Shown piece after piece: positions 5,432 to 22,857 of a DNA stretch of 25,750 nt. The notes below the pieces were generated by a model. That model was not told the origin of the DNA. It ran no database searches and worked only from the letters and a program-made list of their open reading frames with translations. The stretch lies in the IMG/VR virus record IMGVR_UViG_3300044618_000790, positions 1 through 25,750 of that record; one strand, 5' to 3'. Position numbers and translations under genes: made by a program. The DNA is from a virus. Every line of letters starts with the position of its first letter. Position 1 is the first letter of the stretch.

Positions 5432-5605
5432 TTACCACTTATTATGAGGGCAATTTAAACCCTCAATAACAATAGATGTAACAAAACAGTTACATTCATG
5501 TTCGGTGCAATTTTTATTTTCTCCAAGATATTCACACTGCTCGCATATGCGAATACATTCTTTTTTCTCTTCTGTGAGATCTTGTAAGTTTTCCCAAATT
5601 ATCAT
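5432..5605 (-). CDS. 57-residue zinc-ribbon miniprotein
   Basis: Starts at the ATG at 5605, which overlaps the TGA of the 525-residue gene as ATGA; the longer frame upstream (to 5761) only reads through that gene and is rejected. Cysteines fall at residues 17, 21, 24, 33, 38, 40 and 52, giving ICEQCEYLGENKNCTEHECN followed by C and an end of NCPHNKW. This is the same plan as the 51-residue protein at 19816-19971 (CxxC, CxxCxC, CP..KW). Small zinc ribbons of this kind are frequent in phages; their role is not established. Coupling to a fibre gene suggests a role with fibre proteins, such as assembly or a small virion part. That is inference. Confidence 0.8.
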   Translation of the reverse strand: MIIWENLQDLTEEKKECIRICEQCEYLGENKNCTEHECNCFVTSIVIEGLNCPHNKW

Positions 5606-7179
5606 GCCCAGTATACCCAATGCTCCCATGTTCCAGACAGGTTTGTGTAAGTTGCTGTCCCAGCTTGTCCTGTACCCCATATTAGACCATTCGGGAATGA
5701 ACCGCAAGTTGATCCGTTCCAACCAGCACCTACAGCCCCATCCGAGTTTCCCCAGTTGCATGACTGCTGCACATTGTTAAAGAATCCATGACCACCTGCA
5801 TATCCAAGAAATATCCTATACCCAGTTCTTGTTCCAGATGTTGTATAAATGTTTGTAAAGTTTGTTGTGTTGTATCTCTCGTATCCAGCAAAATAACCAG
5901 TATGTCGTATATCCAAAGTATCTCTTTGAACAAGCAACCCCTGATATGGAATATCCAAACCCAATCTATTTACTGTTGCGGTTCCGTTGTATGGACTTGA
6001 AAAAACTCTTACCCAAGGTTTTGATTCAATATAATTTGGTGAATAATACAATTCAACTGCCGATGTCATTGCGCCATCTCTAAACCAATAATTTCCTGCT
6101 GGATAACCAAGGTTTTGCAAAAACATTGGTGATGTTGCTGGATTAGATTGCGTTCCGTATGCTGGTGGTTTCTGAAGAGGATACCTTACGACAACAATTC
6201 CAGATCCACCTTCACCACCTTTATTGGTATTGTTATAGTGGGAACCTCCACCACCTCCACCACCAGTATTTGAGCCAGCATCACCGCCTCTGGTATTAGT
6301 TTGTGCATTGTTACTACCACCGTATCCGCTATATCCATTATTATAACCAGCACCGCCAGAGTTAGAACCTACTGCCCCACCGCCTCCACCACCAATGCCT
6401 CCGTTACCACCGCTGCCAGCAGAATAAGCAGCTCCACCACCTCCACCGCCCCAATATAAATCAACACCAAGGATTGAAGAAAATTTTCCAGGACCACCAT
6501 TTGGTTGATTTGTTGAGTCAGCACCTGGACCGCCTGCACCACCACCTCCACCAGAATAGTATTGACCACCACCTTGCCCACCACGACTTCCTTGACCAGA
6601 AGTTCCTACAACTGGTGCTCTGACATTGGTATCGCTGTATCCACTATGACCACCACCAGAACCGCCAGTAACTCCATTGCCATTATTTGGTGTGTATCCA
6701 TAATATGAACTTCCACCATAACCACCACCAATTGCGGTTAATGTTCCAAATGTAGAATTATTACCGCTTGTTGCAGAAATAGTAAATTGATGAACTGATG
6801 GCTGTGGTCCTGCAGTACCATCTGTCCTGTATCCACCATTACCTGCTGGACCACCAAACCCACCTCTACCAACAGAAAGCGATATAACCTCTGGTCCTTT
6901 AACAGGATATATGCCAGTGAGAACTCCACCGCCCCCACCGCCTCCACCCATATCCATTCCACCGCCCCCACCGCCAGCAACAACAAGGTATTCAACATAT
7001 CCATCTGAACCAGGATCGTGAATTGTGATAGATGATGAACCAACAGTTGTAAATGCGTGAACACGGTATTGAATACTGCCAACAGTAATTGTTGATTCAA
7101 CTCCACCAGTTGCTATTACTGGTCTAAAGCCCGTATATCTAGATACTGTTTTACTAGGGTTTAATTTTCGTATATCCAT
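5602..7179 (-). CDS. Glycine-rich adhesin-like tail/baseplate protein
   Basis: A 525-residue protein. Residues 1-60 form an N-terminal strand-rich part; 61-333 are dominated by glycine runs (YLVVAGGGGGG, GGYGGSSYYG, WGGGGGGAAY) and close with the typical GGSGIVVVRY strand at 324-333. Residues 335-525 form a C-terminal aromatic-rich domain ending LSGTWEHWVYWA, with cysteines at CNWGNSDG and STCGSF. Glycine-rich domains of this type occur in phage adhesins, where polyglycine helices can pack into a sandwich at the fibre tip. A receptor-binding role is therefore likely but inferred. The start overlaps the stop of the 201-residue lectin-like gene, and its own stop overlaps the zinc ribbon start. 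The alternate frames show long, false open stretches because of the GGN codons. Confidence 0.78.
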   Translation of the reverse strand: MDIRKLNPSKTVSRYTGFRPVIATGGVESTITVGSIQYRVHAFTTVGSSSITIHDPGSDGYVEYLVVAGGGGGGMDMGGGGGGGGVLTGIYPVKGPEVISLSVGRGGFGGPAGNGGYRTDGTAGPQPSVHQFTISATSGNNSTFGTLTAIGGGYGGSSYYGYTPNNGNGVTGGSGGGHSGYSDTNVRAPVVGTSGQGSRGGQGGGQYYSGGGGGAGGPGADSTNQPNGGPGKFSSILGVDLYWGGGGGGAAYSAGSGGNGGIGGGGGGAVGSNSGGAGYNNGYSGYGGSNNAQTNTRGGDAGSNTGGGGGGGSHYNNTNKGGEGGSGIVVVRYPLQKPPAYGTQSNPATSPMFLQNLGYPAGNYWFRDGAMTSAVELYYSPNYIESKPWVRVFSSPYNGTATVNRLGLDIPYQGLLVQRDTLDIRHTGYFAGYERYNTTNFTNIYTTSGTRTGYRIFLGYAGGHGFFNNVQQSCNWGNSDGAVGAGWNGSTCGSFPNGLIWGTGQAGTATYTNLSGTWEHWVYWA

Positions 7180-11961: not shown

Positions 11962-14640
11962 TTATTCGTCATTCTTTAGAATTTCATGTACATAATGCAC
12001 AAGAATAGCAGTTAGCGTTGCAATTCCAGCAATTCTCTGAGTTACCCCAGAAAGCGTAATGTAGACAACAAGGCTTCCTGCGAGGGTAAATGCCAATCCA
12101 GCAGTAATATCCCACATCTTTTTGCTAAAACCAAACCAATTAAACTTTTTCATTTCTTTACCCTCCCTTGTATAATACTTGTATATACTATTTTTTGCAA
12201 AATCTTCACCATCGTCTTCTCCTGGACCTGCAATTTCTCCAGAGAACCCGCCTTCTGATTCTTCTTCTTTTCTAGAACGACCTTCGGTTCCCCCAGAACT
12301 TCCAGAGCTTCCAGAACCACCAGACCCTCCCGAACCACCAGATCCACCAGATGAACCACCAGTGCTTCCTCCAGTAGATGCAGAGCCAACAGCTATTGCA
12401 GCTACTGCGGCTGTTGCAGCCAAGATTGATTTACGGGTTCCAACATCAATAGATGAACCTGTTGGGATGTAGTCATCAAACCCATCTCCATAGATGTCAA
12501 CTTCTTCCTCAAACGATTCCTTAATTTCAGCAGGAGCGTCAGTAAGCGCTGTTGCTAATTCTGTTTTCTGCTCTTCGGTAAATTGATCTGGCTCAATTGC
12601 AGCGAATACTTCCGCAATTTGTTCAATAGGAAGTTCTTCAAAGTTTCCATTTTCAATAACTGCAATCGCAGTATCTGGATCAATTGTCTCTTCACTGATT
12701 GCGTCAATGACATTTTCTAGTGCGTCAACTGATTCAATGTTTTCAATAACATCCAGAACCTCTTCTGCCGAAAGGCTGTCTAGGATTTCTGTCAACTGCT
12801 CCACAGATACTTCTTCAAAAACCTGATCTAGTTGCTCAACAGAAAGTGTGTCAATTAAATATATGACATCTTCCACAGAAGCGTTCATAATCTCGTCAAT
12901 GACTTGATCAACCTGCTCTTCCGTTAATACCTCTTCAGTTATAACAACTTCAAACTCTGGAATAAAAGTGTCTATAATTTCAGGTTCTATAATTTCGGTC
13001 TCTATGATTTCAAAGTCTGGCAGGCTGGTGTCCACTTCAACTTCTTCTAAAATTGAGTCTATGGGTTCAAACTCAGGTACCGTAATTGCTGGTTCCTCAA
13101 TTACCGTTTCAATCTCAGGTAGGGGCTCAGAGGGCTCTGGGAGCTCCACTGTTGTATTTATAGGTGGATATACAATGACAGGGGGCTCTGGTATATTTAT
13201 AAAAACTGTGGTGGTGGTGGTTGTAGACGCAGCGGGTTCAGATGTTGTTATGTCAATAACTTCTTGAGGACCATACAGGCAATTCCCAACCCCTTCCCCC
13301 ACACATGGAGATGTACCTGCTTGAATTTTAAATCGTACAGAGCCATAGCCAGTCTGTGAGGATGGGTTGATTGTGTAAGTAGTGTTTGCGCCATATGTCC
13401 AGACACCCCAGCCGCCAGACTCTACCCCGTTATTCAAATCATAAAAAAGAATGTTGTACATGTATGGCTGTGTATTGCTTGCATTCGGTGCATCCCAATT
13501 TAGAGTTACACTTCCATTTTCATTCGCTGTAGCTGTTAAATTTTGAATTGAATTAAAGTAGGGTGCAATACTGGTGGTCGTGGTGGTAGTTGTAGTAGTG
13601 GTTGTATTTGGAACTGTTGTTGTAGTGGTTGTGGTGGTTGTAGTGGTGGTTGTAGTGGTCGTGGTTGTAGTAGTCGCTTCTGTAGTAGTCGTTGGGGGGA
13701 GTGTTGGAGCAGTTTCGTTATTTGGCTCAACCCCGCCAAATGTTTCGCAAGATCCACCCTGAACACATTTCTGCGTTGAGCCTATTTCATCATCAACCAT
13801 CAACACTGGCGATAAACCTTGGTCATCTAAGTTAAATGATGTAAAACCAAGTTTGTATGTTCCTGATACAGAAACTTCATAAGTTGACACTTGCCAGCCA
13901 GTAGCACCGTAGGAGTTTGTTGAATAGTCTCCTGTGCCTGGATTTGTAAAACCAAGAAGTGCATATGATTGTTCAAAATTATTTACAGTTATAACTGGAG
14001 TAGATGCAACGGTGACAGGGACAAGTGAGGTAATTGAGCCATCATTAAATGGAACATAATCAGTTGCCATGTAGTTCCAAGACATTGTGTAAACTATTCC
14101 TGCGGTTAATTGAACTTCACGAGTAATCCATGCAGCATCGGTTGGATTGCCAGCACCAAAACCAGCAGCAGAAGCCTGTTGTGCAAGCATGGTTCTGATT
14201 GCAGAATTATTTGCTCCAGAAAGACCAACGGCATTAGTTGCTTGGTCAAATGTTTGCTGACCTCTTGGTTGTAGGGCAACAGCATAAGTCCCACCCTTTG
14301 GAGAAAAAGTCCAGCTACCAGCAGCGACTGCAGGAGCATAGTATGGATTTGGGCTGCCATTTGAAAGTGTTGGACTTCCCATCGCCCCATTTGCGCCATG
14401 AGTAAAAGTTCTTGAACCATTAAAGATTGTTACGCCAGTACCGTTCCCATTAATTGAAGACCCAAGGGTTCCTGTTTGTGATCCTCTTGACCAGCCAGTA
14501 AAGGTATTATCTTCAAATCCCGCATCTGGAATGGAGACAGGGTTTGCGTTTGCATATGGGGAAGAAACAAATATAGATACAAAAGATACAATTAACGCAG
14601 GGAGTATCGCCCAAGAGCCTTTACGAAAGTTAATGTTCAC
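11962..14640 (-). CDS. Large exported, membrane-anchored modular surface protein
   Basis: An 892-residue protein of unknown function, unlike anything else here. Residues 1-32 form a signal peptide (SWAILPALIVSFVSIFVSS, then ANA before Asn33). Residues 33-290 are a beta-rich ectodomain (PDAGFEDNTFTGWSRGSQTG). About 317-356 are two poly-Thr tracts. A fibronectin III-like domain (NLTATANENGSVTLNWDAP) follows at about 358-465. Then come a Pro/Glu-rich stretch, acidic helical repeats at about 575-720 (VEQLTEILDSLSAEEVLDVI), a Gly/Ser linker and two hydrophobic C-terminal segments (ITAGLAFTLAGSLVVYITLS). It starts with GTG, with a promoter placed for leaderless expression. It precedes the holins. 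A cell-surface role such as superinfection exclusion, or lysis assistance, is speculation. Confidence 0.82.
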   Translation of the reverse strand: MNINFRKGSWAILPALIVSFVSIFVSSPYANANPVSIPDAGFEDNTFTGWSRGSQTGTLGSSINGNGTGVTIFNGSRTFTHGANGAMGSPTLSNGSPNPYYAPAVAAGSWTFSPKGGTYAVALQPRGQQTFDQATNAVGLSGANNSAIRTMLAQQASAAGFGAGNPTDAAWITREVQLTAGIVYTMSWNYMATDYVPFNDGSITSLVPVTVASTPVITVNNFEQSYALLGFTNPGTGDYSTNSYGATGWQVSTYEVSVSGTYKLGFTSFNLDDQGLSPVLMVDDEIGSTQKCVQGGSCETFGGVEPNNETAPTLPPTTTTEATTTTTTTTTTTTTTTTTTTTVPNTTTTTTTTTTTSIAPYFNSIQNLTATANENGSVTLNWDAPNASNTQPYMYNILFYDLNNGVESGGWGVWTYGANTTYTINPSSQTGYGSVRFKIQAGTSPCVGEGVGNCLYGPQEVIDITTSEPAASTTTTTTVFINIPEPPVIVYPPINTTVELPEPSEPLPEIETVIEEPAITVPEFEPIDSILEEVEVDTSLPDFEIIETEIIEPEIIDTFIPEFEVVITEEVLTEEQVDQVIDEIMNASVEDVIYLIDTLSVEQLDQVFEEVSVEQLTEILDSLSAEEVLDVIENIESVDALENVIDAISEETIDPDTAIAVIENGNFEELPIEQIAEVFAAIEPDQFTEEQKTELATALTDAPAEIKESFEEEVDIYGDGFDDYIPTGSSIDVGTRKSILAATAAVAAIAVGSASTGGSTGGSSGGSGGSGGSGGSGSSGSSGGTEGRSRKEEESEGGFSGEIAGPGEDDGEDFAKNSIYKYYTREGKEMKKFNWFGFSKKMWDITAGLAFTLAGSLVVYITLSGVTQRIAGIATLTAILVHYVHEILKNDE
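13573..13692 (-). repeat. Poly-threonine codon tract
   Basis: Trinucleotide-like ACN codons encode two Thr-rich runs broken by EA and VPN. Codons mix ACT, ACC, ACA and ACG, so it is not a pure microsatellite, though slippage could still alter its length. Such tracts in exported proteins are often stiff, glycosylated stalks. Confidence 0.85.
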
Positions 14641-14730: not shown

Positions 14731-15021
14731 TTAAAACCACCACCAATATTTAATTATTGATGCAGAAGCAAGAAACACCCATGCGATATTAAACCAAATA
14801 ATGGTTGGCATAGTCTTAATTGTTGATGTCAGAATTAAAGCCAAACTTGACACAAGAGCAAATATATATAACCACCAAAACTGCACCCCAAACAACAGAC
14901 CTGGAAATATGATGGCGATCTTAGTCATAAAAGCCCAAGCTTCAACTATATTTGTCTTAGTCCAATATTCACGACTGCCCCATTTTTTTGAAACAGATTT
15001 AATGTCTTTAAAACTAAGCAT
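14731..15021 (-). CDS. Trp-rich small membrane protein at end of halogenase cassette
   Basis: A 96-residue protein with about three hydrophobic segments (about 28-46, 48-66 and 73-91) after a polar N-terminus (SFKDIKSVSKKWGSREYW). It has ten tryptophans (14, 20, 29, 49, 50, 76, 81, 93, 94, 95) and ends KYWWWF. Its ATG overlaps the stop of the 2OG-oxygenase-like gene (TAATG), so it belongs to the cassette. I recognise no family. Candidates are a membrane anchor for the enzymes, an exporter-like subunit, or a substrate; the Trp content next to a tryptophan-halogenase-like enzyme makes the last worth testing but is not evidence by itself. Confidence 0.72.
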   Translation of the reverse strand: MLSFKDIKSVSKKWGSREYWTKTNIVEAWAFMTKIAIIFPGLLFGVQFWWLYIFALVSSLALILTSTIKTMPTIIWFNIAWVFLASASIIKYWWWF

Positions 15022-15752
15022 TAGATAACAATCAACTCTAACTGATCTTCTTGATTCATTTCTATTGAAGTTGGATTTCCAACAATATCAAAGTCAACTA
15101 AATTATTTTTTATTTGATCAATTTGATTATATTTTGAAAGAACAATATCAAATGAAAGAGTTACTCTTTCAGAATCTCCATTGTGGATACTACTTCCGTG
15201 AGGAATGAATGATGGGAACAAGGTTAGCAATCCTGGTTCATTTTCTGATTCATACCCCTTGCTTGGGAGAAATGGGTTGTAGAATTTAGTAACCGTACCC
15301 TCACTAGCAAGGACAAGATTCCCTGATAGATGAGTCCAGGGTCCATGAGCATGGTTATGTATATTTATATTTTGCCCTTTCCTCATGACATTTGCCCAGC
15401 AAAGTATTTTTACATCAAATCTTTCCACTCCAAGAGCTTCTATATAGGCAATATACATTTGATGAATACATTGTTTTACAAGCGCAATTTCTGGTTCATC
15501 CCATCTAAATACATTGTAAGAGCAGAATCTTACAGTTAAGCTATCTTTGCCAAGAGAACTACCTTCATCACTATAACCAGCAGTATCTAGAGCTGGTATC
15601 TCGTCAATAATCAACTGCTCTTTGCTTAAAATAATATCTGCCAATCTTTGTGCAAGACCTGGGGGAATTATGAAGTCCTCGGCTAAACTAAACTTCCATT
15701 CAGGGGCAAGAGGGCTTTTTTTTTCATTATTTTTTGATGTAAGAATTCTCAT
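15021..15752 (-). CDS. 2OG-Fe(II) oxygenase-like protein (2OG-FeII_Oxy_5 type)
   Basis: A 243-residue protein with a double-stranded beta-helix signature: GQNINIHNHAHGPWTHLSG (127-144), then GLLTLFPSFIPHGSSIHNGD with distal H185, and ERVTLSFDIVL with R196 as the likely 2OG-binding Arg. This matches the general pattern of the putative 2OG-FeII_Oxy_5 family, often found in cyanophages and marine bacteria. The proximal site offers H132, H134 and H136 but no HxD acid, so the iron ligands are uncertain. Without the acid, hydroxylation is not assured; in some Fe/2OG halogenases halide takes that place, but I would not claim this here. It is coupled by TAATG to the halogenase gene upstream. Confidence 0.75.
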   Translation of the reverse strand: MRILTSKNNEKKSPLAPEWKFSLAEDFIIPPGLAQRLADIILSKEQLIIDEIPALDTAGYSDEGSSLGKDSLTVRFCSYNVFRWDEPEIALVKQCIHQMYIAYIEALGVERFDVKILCWANVMRKGQNINIHNHAHGPWTHLSGNLVLASEGTVTKFYNPFLPSKGYESENEPGLLTLFPSFIPHGSSIHNGDSERVTLSFDIVLSKYNQIDQIKNNLVDFDIVGNPTSIEMNQEDQLELIVI

Positions 15753-17254
15753 TATACTCCTAAAAACTCATTATGAGTAATACAAATATTTTCAAGACTA
15801 GATGTTTTTTCTAAATAATTGCTATACATGCTAATGAATTCGGGTGTGAATAGACCATTGTAAAGCATTTCTTGTTGTATTGTAGATTTATCTATATAAC
15901 CAACACCCATTAAAATAGCAATATAACCATACAAACCAAACATTGAAACATTGTTTATATCATCATATGAAATAATATTTTGTTTACATTTTTCTAAAAG
16001 AAGATCCACACCTTCTGTTGGGCGATATTCTTTTTTATAATTTTTCCAAAAATCATTATTTTTTTTATCTGTTAAATAATGTATGTATATAAAATCAATA
16101 ATCTCTTTATTGCTCTCAACAAAAAAATTGTTATAAAGATCTATATTGTATTTATTTATATTTTTAACAAAGTTTCTATTTGACAAAATTTTCTTTAAAT
16201 ATCTTGCTGTTCCTAGTAAAGATGTTGCTTCTAATGGTTCAACAAATCCGCTTGATAAACCAATAGCGGCGCAATTATTGATCCATGACTTTTCATAGTA
16301 CCCAGCTTCAAAATTAAATGTATTTACAATCTCAACATCAGTATTAAAATATTTGTCAATTTCATCTTTAGCTTCATCTTTACTAATATATTCATTGTTA
16401 AAAACATAGCCAGCACCAACTCTTGTTTGTGTTGGTATATTCCACATCCACCCATAATCCATCGCTATGGCTTCCGTGTATGGTTTTATTTCATTCTTAT
16501 TTTTTAAGAAAAATGCCATTGCGGAGTTCATTGGTAAATGCTCTTTATATGATATCCACTTTGCCTTATAAAAAGAGCCAATAATTAATCTCTTAAAACC
16601 ACTGCAATCAAAAACAAAATCGCAATCATAATTAGTATTATTATTGCAAGATAATGACTGTATGAATCCATCACTATCTGTATTTATTTTTTGAACAATT
16701 GCATCAACATGATTAACACCTCTTGATATTGCAACTTTTTTTAAAAACTCAGCCAGCTTTCTTGCGTTGAAATGAACAGCGAAACTAGATATAGATCGGC
16801 TACCATTCACATCCGTTGGTGGTTTATTAAACGGAACCATATTTTTTTCACTCAATCTTCCAACCCAATCAATTCTCTTAAAAGAATTATTTTGGTAGAA
16901 GTCAAAAAGCATTAAATCAAGTGAGTTAGTTCCTGTAAAATTAGAGAAGGGTTTAACTGAATCAATGGCTAAATCACCTATTGGTTTAAATGTATAGTAA
17001 TAATCCTGACTTGACCAATTAGTAAATTTGATACCATTTTTAATTGTTGCATCACAATTTTTAATCAAATCTAATACTGATATTCCTAAAAATTGCATTA
17101 AATCAACAACGCCTGGAACAGTACCTTCGCCCGCTCCAAGAATACCAATCTCTTCACTTTCAATAACGGTAACATCAGATTCGGGGTGCATCCTTTTGCA
17201 ATACAATGCCGATAGCCAACCAGCAGTTCCTCCACCAACAACAATAAATTTCAT
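15752..17254 (-). CDS. Flavin-dependent tryptophan-halogenase-like enzyme
   Basis: A 500-residue protein of the tryptophan halogenase family (PrnA and RebH have about 530-540 residues), which use FADH2, O2 and halide to halogenate an aromatic substrate. Visible motifs are the FAD-binding GGGTAG at 7-12, ESEEIGILGAGEG at 32-44, ATIKNGIKFTNW with K72 at the place of the catalytic Lys, DCSG near 216, WMWNIP at 269-274 (the WxWxIP family signature), and SGFVEPLEATS at 335-345 with E342. The residue after E342 is Ala where PrnA has Ser. A cyanophage member, VirX1, is a working halogenase. A separate flavin reductase is normally needed and none is in view. The start overlaps the upstream gene by four bases. 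The DNA is markedly AT-rich. Confidence 0.92.
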   Translation of the reverse strand: MKFIVVGGGTAGWLSALYCKRMHPESDVTVIESEEIGILGAGEGTVPGVVDLMQFLGISVLDLIKNCDATIKNGIKFTNWSSQDYYYTFKPIGDLAIDSVKPFSNFTGTNSLDLMLFDFYQNNSFKRIDWVGRLSEKNMVPFNKPPTDVNGSRSISSFAVHFNARKLAEFLKKVAISRGVNHVDAIVQKINTDSDGFIQSLSCNNNTNYDCDFVFDCSGFKRLIIGSFYKAKWISYKEHLPMNSAMAFFLKNKNEIKPYTEAIAMDYGWMWNIPTQTRVGAGYVFNNEYISKDEAKDEIDKYFNTDVEIVNTFNFEAGYYEKSWINNCAAIGLSSGFVEPLEATSLLGTARYLKKILSNRNFVKNINKYNIDLYNNFFVESNKEIIDFIYIHYLTDKKNNDFWKNYKKEYRPTEGVDLLLEKCKQNIISYDDINNVSMFGLYGYIAILMGVGYIDKSTIQQEMLYNGLFTPEFISMYSNYLEKTSSLENICITHNEFLGV

Positions 17255-18000
17255 TGATCTATTAAATTGTTCTTAATTTCTTTAAGAACAATTTCTCTCA
17301 TTGAAGATTCTTTGAAATATTGATATCTTGGTAATAATTTTGACCATTTTCTAAGTATCTTGAAATTAATTAGTGTTGTTGCAATATTAAACAATTTTGG
17401 TGTCATTGAATATCTTTTGAGCACAACCTCTTTATCAGTATGAAATTCCCAATACATCAATGGATCTCCCTCTGGCACATGTAATTTATTATTATCGGAC
17501 CAAAGATTGAACTCAGCCATTAGCGGTCTATACCATCTTCCAATGTCAAACTGACCTGGCACAATAGCGCCATACTTCAAATGCTCGGCTTTATGAAAAA
17601 ATGGCGATGTCATTGAGACTTCCAGACTTTCTTCTGCAAATAGACCGAACGCCATTTGATATTCAACTAAGTATTGATTCCTAAGCGTTGGTGCATGAGG
17701 CATATATGCGGGAGTATTTGTATTTCTTGTATTTACATATCGGATATCTGGATATCCGTCATCATTTATAAAAACCTCAATTTCGGTTTCTGCAACATTT
17801 TTGATAACATATGTTCGCTTAAGTTTTTCAGACACAGCGGGGCAATTCATGAAGTTTGCAAATTCATCTTTTGGTTCAAAGTTTTTAATTAGATCTCTAT
17901 AGACATTTTCTGGTTTTCTATATAAAACATCTAGGTTAATATCTTTTTTAGGATCCCACCAAGGGCACCAATAAACCACTATTTGATTATTTTTTTTCAT
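17251..18000 (-). CDS. Unknown protein A of the halogenase cassette
   Basis: A 249-residue protein, MKKNNQIVVYWCPWWDPKKD at the start, with CPAVSEKLKRTYVIKN near 53-68, a beta-hairpin-like TEIEVFINDDGYPDIRYVNT, and HVPEGDPLMYWEFHTDKEVV near 174-193. It ends in basic helices. I recognise no characterised family. It lines up in layout with the 264-residue neighbour: Cys-Pro start, 'I-x-V-x-I-x-x-DG' turn, 'VS' strand, then '(I/V)PEG(T/D)P' and a charged strand, so the two are probably distant paralogues with one beta-rich (perhaps cupin-like) domain each. It overlaps the halogenase start by four bases, arguing for matched amounts of the two proteins. Confidence 0.75.
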   Translation of the reverse strand: MKKNNQIVVYWCPWWDPKKDINLDVLYRKPENVYRDLIKNFEPKDEFANFMNCPAVSEKLKRTYVIKNVAETEIEVFINDDGYPDIRYVNTRNTNTPAYMPHAPTLRNQYLVEYQMAFGLFAEESLEVSMTSPFFHKAEHLKYGAIVPGQFDIGRWYRPLMAEFNLWSDNNKLHVPEGDPLMYWEFHTDKEVVLKRYSMTPKLFNIATTLINFKILRKWSKLLPRYQYFKESSMREIVLKEIKNNLIDQ

Positions 18001-18005
18001 AAGAA

Positions 18006-18800
18006 TTAATCATATCTCTTCTTATGCCATAGATATCTAGTGTATCCACTTGTGAAATACTTTCTGAGAATAGAGCTCTTTTTCATAACTTCATACAAAT
18101 CATACTTTTCTAACTCATATTTCCAATTTCTTCTTACCATTGGAACAAGTTGATACATCGGTGTCCCTTCTGGGATTAAGAATTCGGTATATTCTTTTTT
18201 GATATAAAAAGGGATTGTTCCTTGACCACTTACATATCCGTAATCAGCATCCACGATTCCAGACAGTGTAACGAACGGAAGGTCATAGCGGTTTGCAGGG
18301 TGTTGAAACATTATTGAGACATCCTTTGGGGTATCCGCAACCCAGTTCTCCATCCAAACAAACTCAATAGGATGATAACCATCTGGCATTTTCTGAATAG
18401 GAACACCTTTGGGATATTGCCTTGTTCTTATCATTTCCGTTCCTGGAATTCTTAACGGAGAGTTTGTTGTAACAATATGATTACCATCTTTATCATAATC
18501 TATTGTTACATAAATATCAGCCCAAGTTGATTGAATATATCCACCCGTCATTGCATCATAATAAGGCATACATCTTTTTACAGTCGTATTCAAACCTGGG
18601 GCTGCTGTCATGTAATCTGGCTTATCAGTAAGAAATTGAGGTATTACCTTATACCACTCTGGGATAAAATCCCTTGCTGGTCTTGGAGGAACCTGAGCAG
18701 ATTCTGCTGAAGCGGTTACTGGGATAAACTTAATGAGATTTTTTTTCTTATCTCTTTTTCTTTCATAAGCCTTATCTCTTTTATAAAAATCTTTTGTCAT
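18006..18800 (-). CDS. Unknown protein B of the halogenase cassette
   Basis: A 264-residue protein with a basic start (DKAYERKRDKKKNLIKFIPV), a Pro-rich PPRPARDFIPEWYKVIP (about 38-54), TVKRCMPYYDAMTGGYI (about 73-89), TPKDVSIMFQHPANRYDLPF, LSGIVDADYG and FLIPEGTPMYQLVPMVRRNW (about 208-227). Proteins with this 'RPC/RCMP... IPxGTPxxQ' style occur as uncharacterised phage and bacterial proteins near oxygenases. It overlaps the PKHD oxygenase stop by four bases and shares layout with unknown protein A. No catalytic motif is evident. A substrate carrier, or an oxidoreductase of a jelly-roll fold, is possible; both are guesses. Confidence 0.75.
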   Translation of the reverse strand: MTKDFYKRDKAYERKRDKKKNLIKFIPVTASAESAQVPPRPARDFIPEWYKVIPQFLTDKPDYMTAAPGLNTTVKRCMPYYDAMTGGYIQSTWADIYVTIDYDKDGNHIVTTNSPLRIPGTEMIRTRQYPKGVPIQKMPDGYHPIEFVWMENWVADTPKDVSIMFQHPANRYDLPFVTLSGIVDADYGYVSGQGTIPFYIKKEYTEFLIPEGTPMYQLVPMVRRNWKYELEKYDLYEVMKKSSILRKYFTSGYTRYLWHKKRYD

Positions 18801-19417
18801 TTAAATCTTGGTCCTTCCATCCACACAACTAAACTTCTCCGTACACCATCTGTTACAGGAGTAACACGATGCATTGCAAAAGAAGGAAAAAATATCGCAC
18901 TACCTTTTGTTTGCTTTATCACATACTCAGGCTCACCCTCTGGCATAATACCCAATTCAAAACTACCGCCCTCGTAGGAATCTTCATCTGACAGAAATAC
19001 CGAAACAGATAGCTTTCTTGTTAAAGAAACAGCATCCCCTTCGCCCTCTTTATTTGTTTGCATGTCATAATGCCATGCATAATGATTATGCCGATTATTG
19101 TACTCTGCGTATTGAATTTTTTCAAAACCCCAAATATCATAATTAAAATAATTATTATTTACATAATCAGTCACTTCTTTTATTCTTTCAAATATTAAAC
19201 CATTCTCTTCTTTCGGGAAAAGAAAAGTGGATTGAGATCTACGAACATAGTGATCAACATTGTCCATCACCCCAAGTGATGAATCTTGCAGTCTTTCATT
19301 TTTTGAAACATATTCAATAATATCGTCACATTCCTGATTGGAAAAGATATTATCTAAAACAATAAATGGTCTACTTAGACTGTAATGCCTGTTGTGATTA
19401 ATTACAATATTTCCCAT
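18797..19417 (-). CDS. 2OG-Fe(II) oxygenase, prolyl-4-hydroxylase (PKHD) type
   Basis: A 206-residue enzyme that should use Fe(II), 2-oxoglutarate and O2 to hydroxylate a protein or small-molecule substrate. The facial triad is clear: H116 and D118 in AWHYDMQ, and H183 in SFAMHRVTPV, with R193 ten residues later for 2OG. The EGGSFELG turn at 149-156, KGSAIFFPSF at 171-180 and the WMEGPRFK end are typical of PKHD-type hydroxylases such as PiuC-like proteins. Length matches the family. A Shine-Dalgarno-like AGGAATAGG lies just before the ATG. It is the first recognisable enzyme of the cassette. Substrate unknown; cyanophages carry relatives. Confidence 0.92.
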   Translation of the reverse strand: MGNIVINHNRHYSLSRPFIVLDNIFSNQECDDIIEYVSKNERLQDSSLGVMDNVDHYVRRSQSTFLFPKEENGLIFERIKEVTDYVNNNYFNYDIWGFEKIQYAEYNNRHNHYAWHYDMQTNKEGEGDAVSLTRKLSVSVFLSDEDSYEGGSFELGIMPEGEPEYVIKQTKGSAIFFPSFAMHRVTPVTDGVRRSLVVWMEGPRFK

Positions 19418-19419
19418 TT

Positions 19420-19806
19420 CTACCTATTCCTATCGTGATAAAAACTATCTAATACACCTCTAATACTATTTATACGATCTAGATCTGATTGAGATAAAGA
19501 TGTGGACTGTGTTAGTGCTTTTCTATACTCTGGATATTCGTGGAACACCAGTTTATAATAATGATTAACGAGCGTGATTGCTCCGTAGACAGCGGAAGTA
19601 TCTAAATACATTTTGTCAGACAATGCTTCTTTCAAGATTAAAAATTGGTTATCAACATGTTCAATAACAGCATTTGTAATATCAAACAAGATTTCTGGAT
19701 GGGCATCAAATATACCAAAAAATTCTACTGTTTGACCAATAAAATAAAACTGACCTTCATAAATAACAACTGGACCGTGAATTGATTGCTTTATTTCATA
19801 GCTCAT
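19420..19806 (-). CDS. Unknown protein, first gene of the halogenase cassette
   Basis: A 128-residue protein, SIHGPVVIYEGQFYFIGQTV near the start followed by a helical remainder (TNAVIEHVDNQFLILKEALS, then VYGAITLVNHYYKLVFHEYP and SQSDLDRINSIRGVLDSFYH). I do not recognise a family. It ends two bases before the PKHD oxygenase start, so it is co-expressed with the cassette. The ATG has no Shine-Dalgarno sequence; TAAAAT ends six bases before it, the same spacing as at the good promoter at 14647. It may be a small partner or regulator of the enzymes; nothing in the sequence decides this. Confidence 0.72.
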   Translation of the reverse strand: MSYEIKQSIHGPVVIYEGQFYFIGQTVEFFGIFDAHPEILFDITNAVIEHVDNQFLILKEALSDKMYLDTSAVYGAITLVNHYYKLVFHEYPEYRKALTQSTSLSQSDLDRINSIRGVLDSFYHDRNR

Positions 19807-19812
19807 GAGTCA

Positions 19813-19818
19813 ATTTTA
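19813..19818 (-). promoter_or_regulatory. Possible leaderless promoter for the halogenase cassette
   Basis: TAAAAT ends six bases before the ATG at 19806, with no Shine-Dalgarno sequence. It overlaps the end of the zinc ribbon gene. The -35 region (TTCAAC, spacer 19) is weak. Confidence 0.4.
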
Positions 19819-19971
19819 CCACTTTTCAAGCGGGCATGTTGAATTTGGGAGCTGAACTTTAATTCTCATAAAACATCCGCACTCTTTACAGGTGTTTGTT
19901 GGTTTAAAAAACCTTGGACATTTCTTGCAAATATCAAGTCTTTGCTCAGGTAGCGATTTAATGTCGCTCAT
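19816..19971 (-). CDS. 51-residue zinc-ribbon miniprotein
   Basis: A short gene read directly from the DNA: ATG at 19971, TAA at 19818-19816. The protein has cysteines at 15, 18, 28, 31, 33 and 46 (DICKKCPRFFKPTNTCKECG, then CF and CPLEKW at the end). This is the compact zinc-ribbon plan of many phage miniproteins, and the same plan as the one at 5432-5605. AGGGG lies ahead of the ATG. It starts ten bases after the stop of the Cys-rich lectin-like gene, so it is placed after a fibre-type gene just as the second ribbon is. Function unknown; a metal-binding chaperone or virion part is a guess. Confidence 0.85.
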   Translation of the reverse strand: MSDIKSLPEQRLDICKKCPRFFKPTNTCKECGCFMRIKVQLPNSTCPLEKW

Positions 19972-19980
19972 CACTAACCC

Positions 19981-20892
19981 CTAACTATAGTTAAATGTTT
20001 CTACTTCGGTTGTTGCATTTAGGGTTGAAGGACCAGCCATCAAGCCATGCTTCTTTGCTCTTCCTGATGTCACCCCAGATACACCTGCACCCAACACAGT
20101 CCCGCCAGATGACATCTGTGCAGAAATGTTTACACCAGAGCTATTGCCTGCTGAAATAACCTGAGCTTCCACATATGCAATATAATCACTATTACTAGTC
20201 ACATTGGCGACAGTAGCTGTTAGTTGCTCTACGACAGAACCAGATGTCTTTTTAACAACCTTGACATCATGCTTATACCATGTAGTAGCAGTTGCCGCAT
20301 ATGATACATAACATGTAGATCCACTCAGAGAACCACCCGATGGGCATGAATAAACTCCGTTTGGATACCATGCGGGACTAACCTGCCCAACCCAGACTCC
20401 ACCTTGTAAAAAATAACATGCAGCATGAAATGTCCAGTCCCCTGGACACACGGGGTATGAGCCCTGAGATGCGCCATATGTGTAGTTGCAATTAGTACCG
20501 CTTAATGTCCCACCAGAAGGGCATGAATAAGGAGCTGCTGTGTATGAAGATTTCGTAGTATGAGCACCCCACCAATTATTGGCATCAGTTACCCAGAAAG
20601 AGACTCCATAGCCAGCGCCATTGTTTGCACCAGTAGCTTTAACTACTGCACCTTCACTTTTTGCATCAAACGCAGCAACTGGATACGATGCGCCAGGTGT
20701 GACTGCGTATGCTTTATTATTAGTAATACCCCAAGTTCCGCTTACAGACTCCCATGGTTTTGTTGCTGATGTAGGAAGCGCTGATGTAGTATTAGCTGCA
20801 ACAAAAGTATCTTGAAAAGCAGCTAGCTTTGCAAGAAGTTGCCTTGGGCTCAATGGTCCAAGAGATTTAGATGCTTTAAAAAGAAAACCCAT
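19981..20892 (-). CDS. Cys-rich lectin-like structural protein
   Basis: A 303-residue protein. Residues 26-115 and 205-300 look like two halves of a concanavalin A-like fold (GTWGITNNKAYAVTPGASYP; GAGYGVSFWVTDANNWWGAH; WYKHDVKVVKKTSGSVVEQL). Between them sits a Cys-rich insert (about 118-200) with two copies of YSCPSGG(T/S)LSG(T/S)xC, at 122-135 and 181-194, and a middle CPGDWTFHAACYF. That gives six cysteines (124, 135, 149, 159, 183, 194), enough for three disulphides. It is likely a surface virion protein binding host glycans; the insert may be the binding tip. The start is after GGGGGG, 12 bases past the 650-residue fibre stop. Confidence 0.75.
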   Translation of the reverse strand: MGFLFKASKSLGPLSPRQLLAKLAAFQDTFVAANTTSALPTSATKPWESVSGTWGITNNKAYAVTPGASYPVAAFDAKSEGAVVKATGANNGAGYGVSFWVTDANNWWGAHTTKSSYTAAPYSCPSGGTLSGTNCNYTYGASQGSYPVCPGDWTFHAACYFLQGGVWVGQVSPAWYPNGVYSCPSGGSLSGSTCYVSYAATATTWYKHDVKVVKKTSGSVVEQLTATVANVTSNSDYIAYVEAQVISAGNSSGVNISAQMSSGGTVLGAGVSGVTSGRAKKHGLMAGPSTLNATTEVETFNYS

Positions 20893-20904
20893 TATACCCC
20901 CCTG

Positions 20905-22857
20905 TTAGAAGTTCAAGCTTGAACTACCAAAGACTGTCCACGCACTTCCTGTTCTTAGTAACACGAAGCTAAAGATGTCAATTTTACTTGCAGTACCTGC
21001 AGGAGCAGCTCCACCAGCCCATTTAATCGTCTGTGCAGATCCACCGATTTGCAATGCGTTTGGAATATAGGCAGTTGCTCCTTGAGTAACAATTACAGTT
21101 ACAGCCAATGCTCTATCATTTGTCGTTGGAGCGTTTGTGACATTTAATGTAAAGTTTGCTGCTGGAGAGCTTACATAAGTAATGTTTGTAGCTGTCCAGT
21201 CTAGTGTGAGAACATTGGTTGTGATCGTTCCAGATGTTGCAATTTCAGACATCTCAGCAGCCGTTAATGGACCAGACACTGTTAGACCGCCAGTTAATGT
21301 TGTATTACCAGTCACCGCAAGGTCTGTTGATACAGTAGCATTTCCTGTTACTGTTAAGTTTGTTGATGCTGTAGTATTCCCTGTTACTGTTAGATCTGTT
21401 GTTATAGTAACATTTCCAGATACAGAGGCGTTACCGCTCGCTTCAAGATTTGCAACAACCAAGGATGCATTTGAAGATGCAGCAAAGTTTGCTGTGCTTG
21501 ACGGAGCTGTTGTTAGATTAGTAAACAACTTAAACTTACCATCGCTTGCATCTCTTAATAGACCTGCATACTTGACAGCGCCATCGTTAAACTTACCAGC
21601 GAAACCAAGGTCAAAAGTATCAGCAGCGTTTGTATTTCCCATGAACACAATTGGGTCTGACACGGTAAGGTTGTTTGATTCAAACGCACCACCACCTACA
21701 GTGATGGTTCCTTGAATATTAGTATTACCGCTAATGTAAACATTACCACCAACACCAAGACCGCCAGCAACAACAAGTGCTCCAGTTGTAGCACTTACTG
21801 AGTTAGTAGCGATATTAACTGTTACAGATGTGTTTGGAGTAATAACCATTTGAGTATCATTACTTGACAAACCGCCTGCCGCAAAAACAATCTTGTTTTG
21901 CTGACCATTACCACCAGTAGCAAGAACAAGGTTTCCGTTTCCTGCAGTGTTTGCTGGAGCTTCCATGAAAATATAGCCATCGTGGTCAGCGGTAATTGTG
22001 AATGATGGATCACTAAAGTTAGCTGATGTGATACCCATGTCAATCCAGCCAGCATCGTCATCGCCTGCATCGGCATACGCAATAAAGTCAGTTGAGCTAT
22101 TTGCATTTGTTCCTAAGTTTCTAAAAGCAATTTGCGAGTAATCTACAACATTTGATTGAAATGCAGCTACTGGATTAGTTAATGAGTTTGAAAATGTTTG
22201 AGCATTTGTTCCAACATAAACACCATCATCATTTGTAACAATCAGCGAATTTGATATCTGAGCAGATGTAATCTGAAGACTCGTTGTCCAGACTGCAGCA
22301 TTGCCATTCGTTGACAATAGATAATTAGCATTGCCAGCTTGTGATGGCAATGAGTCTGTTCCAGAAACAACTTCTGCCCACCTCTCAGCTGCTTCAGCTG
22401 CAAAACCACCAGAGCCAGATGTGTGATCAAGAAGAGCAACATAATAACTGATACCATTTGTTACAACATCATCAACTAAATATGCAGTAGTTGTAGCCCA
22501 AAAACTACGATTTCTAAGACCACGGGTGAAAGATTGCCATTTATTTGCTGCAAGGTCTGTTGCGAATGTGCCTGATGTGTGTGCAATCAAACAAATATAG
22601 GTTGAACCACCTCTAACAACAATATCGTCTACTAAATAAGCAGTTGCTGTTGCCCAGTTCCCCTTGTAGTCCTGTCCTTCAGACATGACACTCCAGTATG
22701 TTGCATTAGTTGGTAGGTTATTGCTTGCATTGGTTGTATTGATATATACATAGGATTTACCACCATATGTAACAACATCATTTATTTCATATGTAGTACC
22801 ACTATTGTAAGCACCCTGATGGTAGAACCTAAGTCTACCAAGATCTATTGCAGCCAT
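20905..22857 (-). CDS. Large fibre protein with three N-terminal carbohydrate-binding-like repeats
   Basis: A 650-residue structural protein. The N-terminus has three similar units of about 50 residues (about 12-58, 64-113, 115-166). Each has a W/Y-x-x-x-(T/A)xY-x-x-(N/D)D(V/I)V opening and an aromatic strand (GGKSYVYINT, GGSTYICLIA, GISYYVALLD), the pattern of small chitin- or sugar-binding modules. The middle is a beta-repeat shaft (GALVVAGGLGVGGNVYISGN, about 359-378) and a 12-residue repeat region at 471-530. A C-terminal domain starts near AAEMSEIATSG. It is likely the main side or tail fibre. The ATG follows directly on the stop of the 121-residue gene upstream. Confidence 0.82.
   Translation of the reverse strand: MAAIDLGRLRFYHQGAYNSGTTYEINDVVTYGGKSYVYINTTNASNNLPTNATYWSVMSEGQDYKGNWATATAYLVDDIVVRGGSTYICLIAHTSGTFATDLAANKWQSFTRGLRNRSFWATTTAYLVDDVVTNGISYYVALLDHTSGSGGFAAEAAERWAEVVSGTDSLPSQAGNANYLLSTNGNAAVWTTSLQITSAQISNSLIVTNDDGVYVGTNAQTFSNSLTNPVAAFQSNVVDYSQIAFRNLGTNANSSTDFIAYADAGDDDAGWIDMGITSANFSDPSFTITADHDGYIFMEAPANTAGNGNLVLATGGNGQQNKIVFAAGGLSSNDTQMVITPNTSVTVNIATNSVSATTGALVVAGGLGVGGNVYISGNTNIQGTITVGGGAFESNNLTVSDPIVFMGNTNAADTFDLGFAGKFNDGAVKYAGLLRDASDGKFKLFTNLTTAPSSTANFAASSNASLVVANLEASGNASVSGNVTITTDLTVTGNTTASTNLTVTGNATVSTDLAVTGNTTLTGGLTVSGPLTAAEMSEIATSGTITTNVLTLDWTATNITYVSSPAANFTLNVTNAPTTNDRALAVTVIVTQGATAYIPNALQIGGSAQTIKWAGGAAPAGTASKIDIFSFVLLRTGSAWTVFGSSSLNF
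21268..21447 (-). repeat. 36-base repeat units coding for fibre shaft
   Basis: Units of 12 residues (LTVTGNTTASTN, LTVTGNATVSTD, LAVTGNTTLTGG and an earlier LEASGNASVSGN) in tandem, with one half unit. The DNA copies are similar but not identical. Changes in unit number would change shaft length. Confidence 0.7.

Follow-up and report, generated by a model that had tools for sequence, protein, structure and literature searches.

Halogenase and oxygenase genes have already been described as clustering together in cyanophages, and the available part of the source presents the S-SSM6a cluster as a secondary-metabolite system, with no adhesin link in that portion of the account (PMC7824862). Other explanations offered for cyanophage halogenases and 2-oxoglutarate (2OG) oxygenases are protection against antibiotics (PMC2984593) and nitrogen signalling or DNA repair (PMC3037559). 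Cyanophage Syn10 encodes the halogenase VirX1 as CPUG_00131, a full-length match to PDB 6QGM, with CPUG_00132 as a tandem halogenase. A further flavoprotein, QhpG, dihydroxylates protein tryptophan and has a structure that resembles flavin adenine dinucleotide (FAD)-dependent halogenases (PMC7876137). Here we consider a fragment of an uncultured virus (IMG/VR record IMGVR_UViG_3300044618_000790, positions 1-25,750), referred to below as the window, meaning the whole 25,750-nucleotide stretch analysed. In it a halogenase gene, g5, lies within an island, g0 to g7, that follows the genes for a tail fibre and an adhesin-like protein, u303 (Table 1). With a probability of about 0.6, the island would serve the late-expressed tailoring of tail adhesins, using reduced FAD (FADH2) supplied by the host.

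A sequence-only reading of the window had proposed a tight run of seven genes, and seven open reading frames (ORFs) do extend from 19806 to 14731 on the minus strand with successive gaps of 2, -4, 5, -4, -1 and -1 bases. The run does not, however, start at 19806, since the fibre, u303 and g0 precede g1 and lead into it with gaps of 12, 6 and 9 bases, leaving the run unbroken from the tail fibre; lysis genes come right after the island. The fibre is 61-79% identical in relatives, its N-terminal part is common to fibres beside other versions of the island, and it shows 34% identity over 147 residues to the 1477-residue S-SSM6a protein adjoining the halogenase cluster of that phage. The S-SSM6a cluster thus sits behind a homologous fibre, and also behind three related proteins rich in Gly and Cys, of which one scores slightly above the cut-off of Gly_rich_2. 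u303 is found in every orthologous version of the island at 47-61% identity, and alignment reveals a variable Cys/Trp/Tyr-rich insert flanked by two YxCPSGGxxSGxxCxY repeats, the richest 80-residue spans reaching 0.19 for His, Trp and Tyr together (HWY) and 0.23 for Trp, Tyr and Cys.

Neighbourhoods were counted for 96 halogenase clusters, 87 or 84 of which had enough flanking genes, with other positions in the same loci as controls; the halogenases had been gathered partly via g7. A 2OG oxygenase occurred within six genes of the halogenase in 51 of 87 clusters, as against 9 of 55 controls (p 7e-7), and g3 or g4 in 37 of 87 as against 7 of 55 (p 2e-4). Adhesin-like genes lay no more than eight genes upstream in 30 of 84 clusters, the control figure being 56 of 505, and the adhesin-halogenase link is enriched, not universal. 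Ahead of many islands gathered via g7 stands an adhesin-like gene whose product combines collagen-like and polyglycine stretches with a His-rich segment. Such adhesins reach 12-44% His in a span of 80 residues (background 99th percentile 10%), and wherever a His-rich adhesin is followed by at least four genes a halogenase comes after it. The Gly-rich adhesins of five relatives that have no halogenase give HWY values of 0.06-0.12 and lack His-rich segments.

A search with the capsid protein yielded 80 relatives, in which the same genomic place was compared. In version A, found in the window, L066/L139, L093, L097, L099, L249, L239 and L240 (L093, L097 and L099 being cut at contig ends), the order is fibre, u303, g0, g1, PKHD oxygenase, (g3), g4, halogenase, partners and g7. 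The partners vary: one Oxy_5 protein in the window, three Oxy_3 proteins in L139 and likewise in L249, an Oxy_5-like protein in L239, and an Oxy_5-like protein, an oxygenase and a carbamoyltransferase in L240. Version B (L065, L088) combines a Gly-rich adhesin, an oxygenase-like phrog_274 protein and a halogenase with a protein resembling sulfotransferases (Sulfotransfer_3 3.7e-4, below cut-off) and a member of the Asp/Asn hydroxylase family, and version C (L070) holds two further adhesins and a halogenase together with a relative of g3 and three proteins that resemble 2OG oxygenases. The version D island (G028-G030) is not near the lysis genes but in a second fibre locus, where the adhesin ahead of it is a different one, rich in His and with collagen-like and polyglycine stretches. 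A quick tree of 104 halogenases, in which Syn10 is represented by CPUG_00132, placed the window enzyme in a clade of 50 rows (support 98), that of L066 in a different clade of 30 rows (support 99) and those of L239 and L240 in a third. A single slot therefore holds halogenases of three clades (window; L066/L249; L239/L240), always with g7 at the end, and since the flanking genes are orthologous whilst the halogenases fall in different clades, sequence comparison indicates that the halogenase is replaced in place. In scans with single proteins the complete seven-gene set was confined to one phage species and a relative at about 95%, and the view of the cassette as one indivisible unit was dropped, the halogenase being swapped, Oxy_5 and other enzymes varying and g7 going with halogenases generally; what does stay joined is the core u303-g0-g1-g2-(g3)-g4.

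g5 matches Pfam Trp_halogenase (PF04820) at 345 bits (8e-103), above the curated cut-off, and the motifs GGGTAG (residues 7-12), K72, WMWNIP (269-274) and EPLEA (339-343) noticed earlier are all present. K72, W269 and E342 are invariant across 18 phage halogenases, and the closest solved structures are halogenases (Th-Hal, PDB 5lv9, 3e-65; VirX1, 4e-49). A local alignment to PrnA stops at PrnA residue 430 of 538. The QhpG profile of NCBIfam gave 32 bits against a cut-off of 240, and LodB and GoxB were also weak matches, so that g5 does not show the grouping with non-halogenase monooxygenases that the sequence-only reading had named as part of what would refute it. Because K72 and E342 are retained, halogenation is the more likely predicted activity, rather than plain hydroxylation. 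The description of the cassette as self-contained is not supported: 13 related contigs, of which three exceed 100 kb, yielded no member of the Flavin_Reduct family in a search whose control was detected in 13 of 14 genomes, and FADH2 would therefore be supplied by the host.

Pfam families above curated cut-offs were obtained for only three of the seven island genes, g2, g5 and g6, the other four giving none. The 206-residue g2 protein has the iron ligands H116/D118/H183 (HxD...H) attributed to it earlier, and matches 2OG-FeII_Oxy_3 (5e-15, above the curated cut-off) and a PKHD-type hydroxylase, PDB 3dkq (2.6e-9). For g6, membership of the 2OG-FeII_Oxy_5 family holds by profile (36.4 bits, cut-off 27, 7e-9; phrog_81 7e-23), but the obvious HxD/E iron motif was not found in it, the sole candidate being HNH at 132-134, which leaves the predicted enzyme activity uncertain. 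The label DNA endonuclease V, given to certain proteins of cyanophages and PHROGs (L394:5392-6024, L394:8434-8925 and L393:14267-14815; phrog_274 and phrog_2297), looks wrong, since they match 2OG-FeII_Oxy_3, some of them below cut-off.

The membrane protein g7 belongs to no known family. A scan for g7 only gave 80 loci, and a halogenase was present in 60 of the 67 in which a g7 ORF was recognised, several of the remaining seven ending at contig edges. Among the relatives, eight contigs have both g7 and a halogenase and five have neither (g7 profile 8/8 vs 0/5; Fisher p 8e-4); in a further relative (G020) the halogenase is present, but the contig stops shortly afterwards. Starting from halogenases only, a g7 neighbour was counted in 34 of 77 loci, and g7 lies near 45 of the 87 halogenase clusters, a figure inflated since the halogenases were partly gathered via g7. 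As g7 accompanies halogenases of several clades in the tree, a working partnership of the two is suggested. Neither g7 (50,697 phage records searched) nor the His-rich adhesin has a match in isolated phages, so that both contexts rest on metagenomic contigs.

Less can be said of the other genes. The PHROG families to which g3 (phrog_7084) and g4 (phrog_17480) belong carry no functional annotation. g0 is kept ahead of g1 in relatives, and g1, with no Pfam or PHROG match, has orthologues of 26-41% identity in the same place. Those of g4 are 43-54% identical in relatives, and its predicted structure is unusable (predicted local distance difference test, pLDDT, 36). The AlphaFold model of g3 (mean pLDDT 69, predicted template modelling score 0.66) was compared by Foldseek, and the 50 matches listed were all dUTPases or dCTP deaminases (best E 6e-4), which points to a dUTPase-like fold; no dUTPase family profile of Pfam or NCBIfam matched g3. 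In bacterial genomes g3 is found mostly in Alphaproteobacteria, and around these loci, in about half of which the g3 ORF was recovered, no halogenase and no explanatory conserved neighbour was recognised. In haloarchaeal tailed viruses it is a lone gene with no halogenase within the stretch examined. The earlier suggestion that g3 and g4 are related finds weak support in the match of g4 to the PHROG family of g3 (9e-4) and none in profile-profile comparison.

The island may thus be pictured as a modular unit that would be expressed late, together with the tail fibre. g2 (PKHD-type) and g6 (Oxy_5-type) would hydroxylate adhesin side chains post-translationally, and g5 would halogenate aromatic side chains (Trp or Tyr, possibly His) of the adjacent adhesin, in the window most likely u303, with its variable Cys/aromatic insert, or the fibre ahead of the island. 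g3 and g4 would probably aid in recognising or holding the substrate, a substrate-binding role for g3 being a guess, g7 would be the membrane partner of the halogenase, and FADH2, 2OG and Fe(II) would be drawn from the host. The finished adhesins may differ in binding, stability or cross-linking, and, where enzymes and adhesins are swapped together, the surface that meets the host would come to have a different chemistry. Adhesin tailoring is favoured by the continuity of the run with fibre and adhesin genes, by conservation of the core and u303 whilst halogenases and partners vary, by the enrichment of oxygenase and adhesin-like genes near halogenases and the His-richness of island-linked adhesins, and by the version D island behind a different adhesin in a second fibre locus. 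It is favoured also by the position of VirX1 and the tandem Syn10 halogenase just downstream of Gly_rich_2 proteins, by the weak matches of g5 to QhpG, LodB and GoxB, which are flavoproteins needed for Trp modification in proteins, and by the Asp/Asn hydroxylase and sulfotransferase-like genes of other versions, families with many protein-modifying members.

A number of observations weigh against adhesin tailoring. No recognisable adhesin lies upstream in 54 of the 84 clusters, and some halogenases are located elsewhere, beside tRNAs, talC and hli genes in S-RIM44 and in what looks like a lysis region in the L188 group. The candidate substrates in the window are mildly aromatic-rich, not His-rich, the version B Gly-rich adhesin (G022) is not rich in His, Trp or Tyr, and it was mostly via g7 that the loci with His-rich adhesins were gathered. 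The PKHD and Asp_Arg_Hydrox families include members acting on small molecules, and the dUTPase-like fold of g3 is not accounted for. The main rival, which we consider unlikely, is that the island serves to build a small molecule carrying halogen and hydroxyl groups, such as an antibiotic, a toxin or a decoration of the capsule or host surface, as was predicted for the S-SSM6a cluster (PMC7824862). The carbamoyltransferases of L174, L240 and S-SSM6a and the sugar- and nucleotidyl-transfer genes beside some halogenases (DSL-LC01, S-SSM6a) would fit such a product, but when the seven genes and those around them were scanned with Pfam, no scaffold-building enzyme, export or resistance gene came to light, the genes stand in a structural run with an enzyme set that shifts with adhesin type, and the S-SSM6a cluster itself has fibre and Gly/Cys-rich genes in front of it.

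It is more doubtful still that the target is a protein of the host or a structure on its surface, modified for example to block superinfection or aid release. The predicted membrane location of g7 and the position of the island just ahead of the lysis genes in the window would agree with this, but the island type follows the upstream adhesin and in G028-G030 the island, in the second fibre locus, is not beside the lysis genes. Of the three targets raised by the sequence-only reading, a virion protein, the host surface and a peptide, modification of a virion protein is the best supported. As regards a ribosomally synthesised and post-translationally modified peptide, for which a precursor with a variable core and a transporter or protease are the criteria, the only short conserved ORF is g0, a four-Cys DUF6171 protein of conserved sequence, and the cluster contains no transporter. 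There is little likelihood that g5 is a protein-Trp monooxygenase of the QhpG/LodB type and that the island only hydroxylates, since the weak NCBIfam matches, and the action of QhpG on protein Trp with a halogenase-like structure (PMC7876137), have to be set against the Trp_halogenase score, the invariant K72, W269 and E342 and the halogenases that are its closest solved structures. A role in nitrogen or 2OG metabolism was dropped, as it does not predict the adhesin linkage.

Table 1. Genes of the fibre-island run in the window
Feature	Position	Strand	Basis
650-aa tail fibre protein, opening the run	20905..22857	-	phrog_9851 tail fiber 6.6e-21
u303, adhesin-like, candidate substrate	19981..20892	-	alignment, variable insert
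g0, 52-aa four-Cys protein, DUF6171 / phrog_13558	19816..19974	-	Pfam, PHROG
g1, 128 aa, function unknown, island core	19420..19806	-	orthologues in same place
g2, PKHD/P4H-type 2OG-Fe(II) oxygenase, 206 aa	18797..19417	-	Pfam, PDB, motif
g3, phrog_7084 protein, predicted dUTPase-like (beta-clip) fold	18006..18800	-	PHROG, AlphaFold, Foldseek
g4, phrog_17480 protein, unknown fold	17251..18000	-	PHROG 5e-27
g5, flavin-dependent halogenase (predicted activity)	15752..17254	-	Pfam, PDB, motifs, tree
g6, 2OG-FeII_Oxy_5 family protein	15021..15752	-	Pfam, phrog_81
g7, Trp-rich membrane protein of 96 aa with 10 Trp, associated with halogenases	14731..15021	-	profile, alignment

The major capsid protein of the window is about 54% identical to its counterparts in Streptomyces phages such as Jay2Jay, which places the phage as a relative of the Stanwilliamsviridae. 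WhiB, a mark of actinophages (PMC10202952), is encoded in 7 of 11 related contigs, and because of this and the capsid resemblance an actinobacterial host is likely. Directly after g7 and ahead of the small lysis-region genes, the window encodes an 892-residue protein (11962-14640) whose start resembles a signal peptide, which contains poly-Thr linkers and is hydrophobic in a C-terminal region, and whose length differs between relatives. A second Gly-rich adhesin (5602-7179, Gly_rich_2, 525 residues) lies in another fibre locus, a site of the type that the island occupies in G028-G030. In contig L002, u303, the cassette and the downstream genes are 98-100% identical and the capsid and fibre 77-79%, which suggests that recombination took place between the fibre gene and u303.

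Several gene rows in other contigs are worth recording. The His-rich adhesins L269:2949-4370, L264:2224-4230, L301:3839-5449 and L241:2530-3714 have repeats such as HHHTPGGHHHTPNGH, with up to 44% His per 80 residues, and the His segments sit between collagen-like and polyglycine stretches. The island at L174:468-10658 comprises a Gly-rich adhesin, a carbamoyltransferase, two sulfotransferase-like proteins, several 2OG oxygenases, a JmjC/cupin protein, a halogenase and adenosine 5'-phosphosulfate (APS)-kinase-like and nucleotidyltransferase-like proteins. The row at L188:5820-9811, found again in many related contigs, consists of a sulfotransferase, an Asp/Asn hydroxylase-family protein, an APS-kinase/cytidylyltransferase-like fusion, a 70-residue protein, a halogenase and g7. 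The sulfotransferase-, APS-kinase- and nucleotidyltransferase-like genes of L174 and L188 suggest that sulfation is part of the predicted repertoire of some islands. The version B halogenase L145:5271-6800 ends in KPDSDGWWAWDEDTKKWMF, which is resembled by the Trp-rich tail KKWWDWDEDSLSW of a 115-residue protein encoded two genes upstream (L145:7444-7791), and these shared tails are possibly a docking element.

A wider and more tentative proposal, which we would not put at even odds, is that phages run widespread, exchangeable protein-tailoring machinery, capable of halogenation, hydroxylation and in some cases sulfation or carbamoylation, on Gly-, His- or Cys/aromatic-rich receptor-binding tips with g7 as a dedicated membrane partner, and that the natural substrate of VirX1 is a Gly-rich tail adhesin. 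If this were true, phage host recognition would involve side chains that the sequence does not reveal, with consequences for the prediction of host range and for work on adhesins, and the islands would be a source of enzymes halogenating intact proteins. The adhesin linkage offers a single testable alternative to the antibiotic-protection, nitrogen/DNA-repair and secondary-metabolism explanations, and a substrate hypothesis for VirX1. Nothing relevant to hydroxylation or halogenation of phage tail fibres was found in the open-licence literature of PubMed Central. Within what was available of it, the linkage to adhesins, g7, halogenase exchange and the His-rich adhesins seem not to have been described before.

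Compared with the free-Trp halogenases Th-Hal, RebH and PrnA, g5 shares the fold, the FAD motif, WxWxIP and the equivalents of PrnA K79 and E346 (K72 and E342), but its C-terminal part is apparently not conserved with respect to PrnA and it is set in a phage fibre run. The flavoproteins of tryptophylquinone cofactor formation, QhpG, LodB and GoxB, have a related flavin fold and act on Trp within a protein, whereas g5 is far below their family cut-offs and keeps the halogenase Lys and Glu. The S-SSM6a cluster (PMC7824862) is similar in packing a halogenase, 2OG oxygenases, a cupin and carbamoyltransferases together in a phage; the window has no carbamoyltransferase, but its relative L240 does. 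VirX1 and the tandem halogenase of Syn10 differ in that g5 is nearer to bacterial Trp halogenases than to VirX1 and in that g7 has no counterpart in isolated phages, and resemble the window in that a viral flavin-dependent halogenase closely follows adhesin-like genes, which in Syn10 encode Gly-rich proteins including two of Gly_rich_2.

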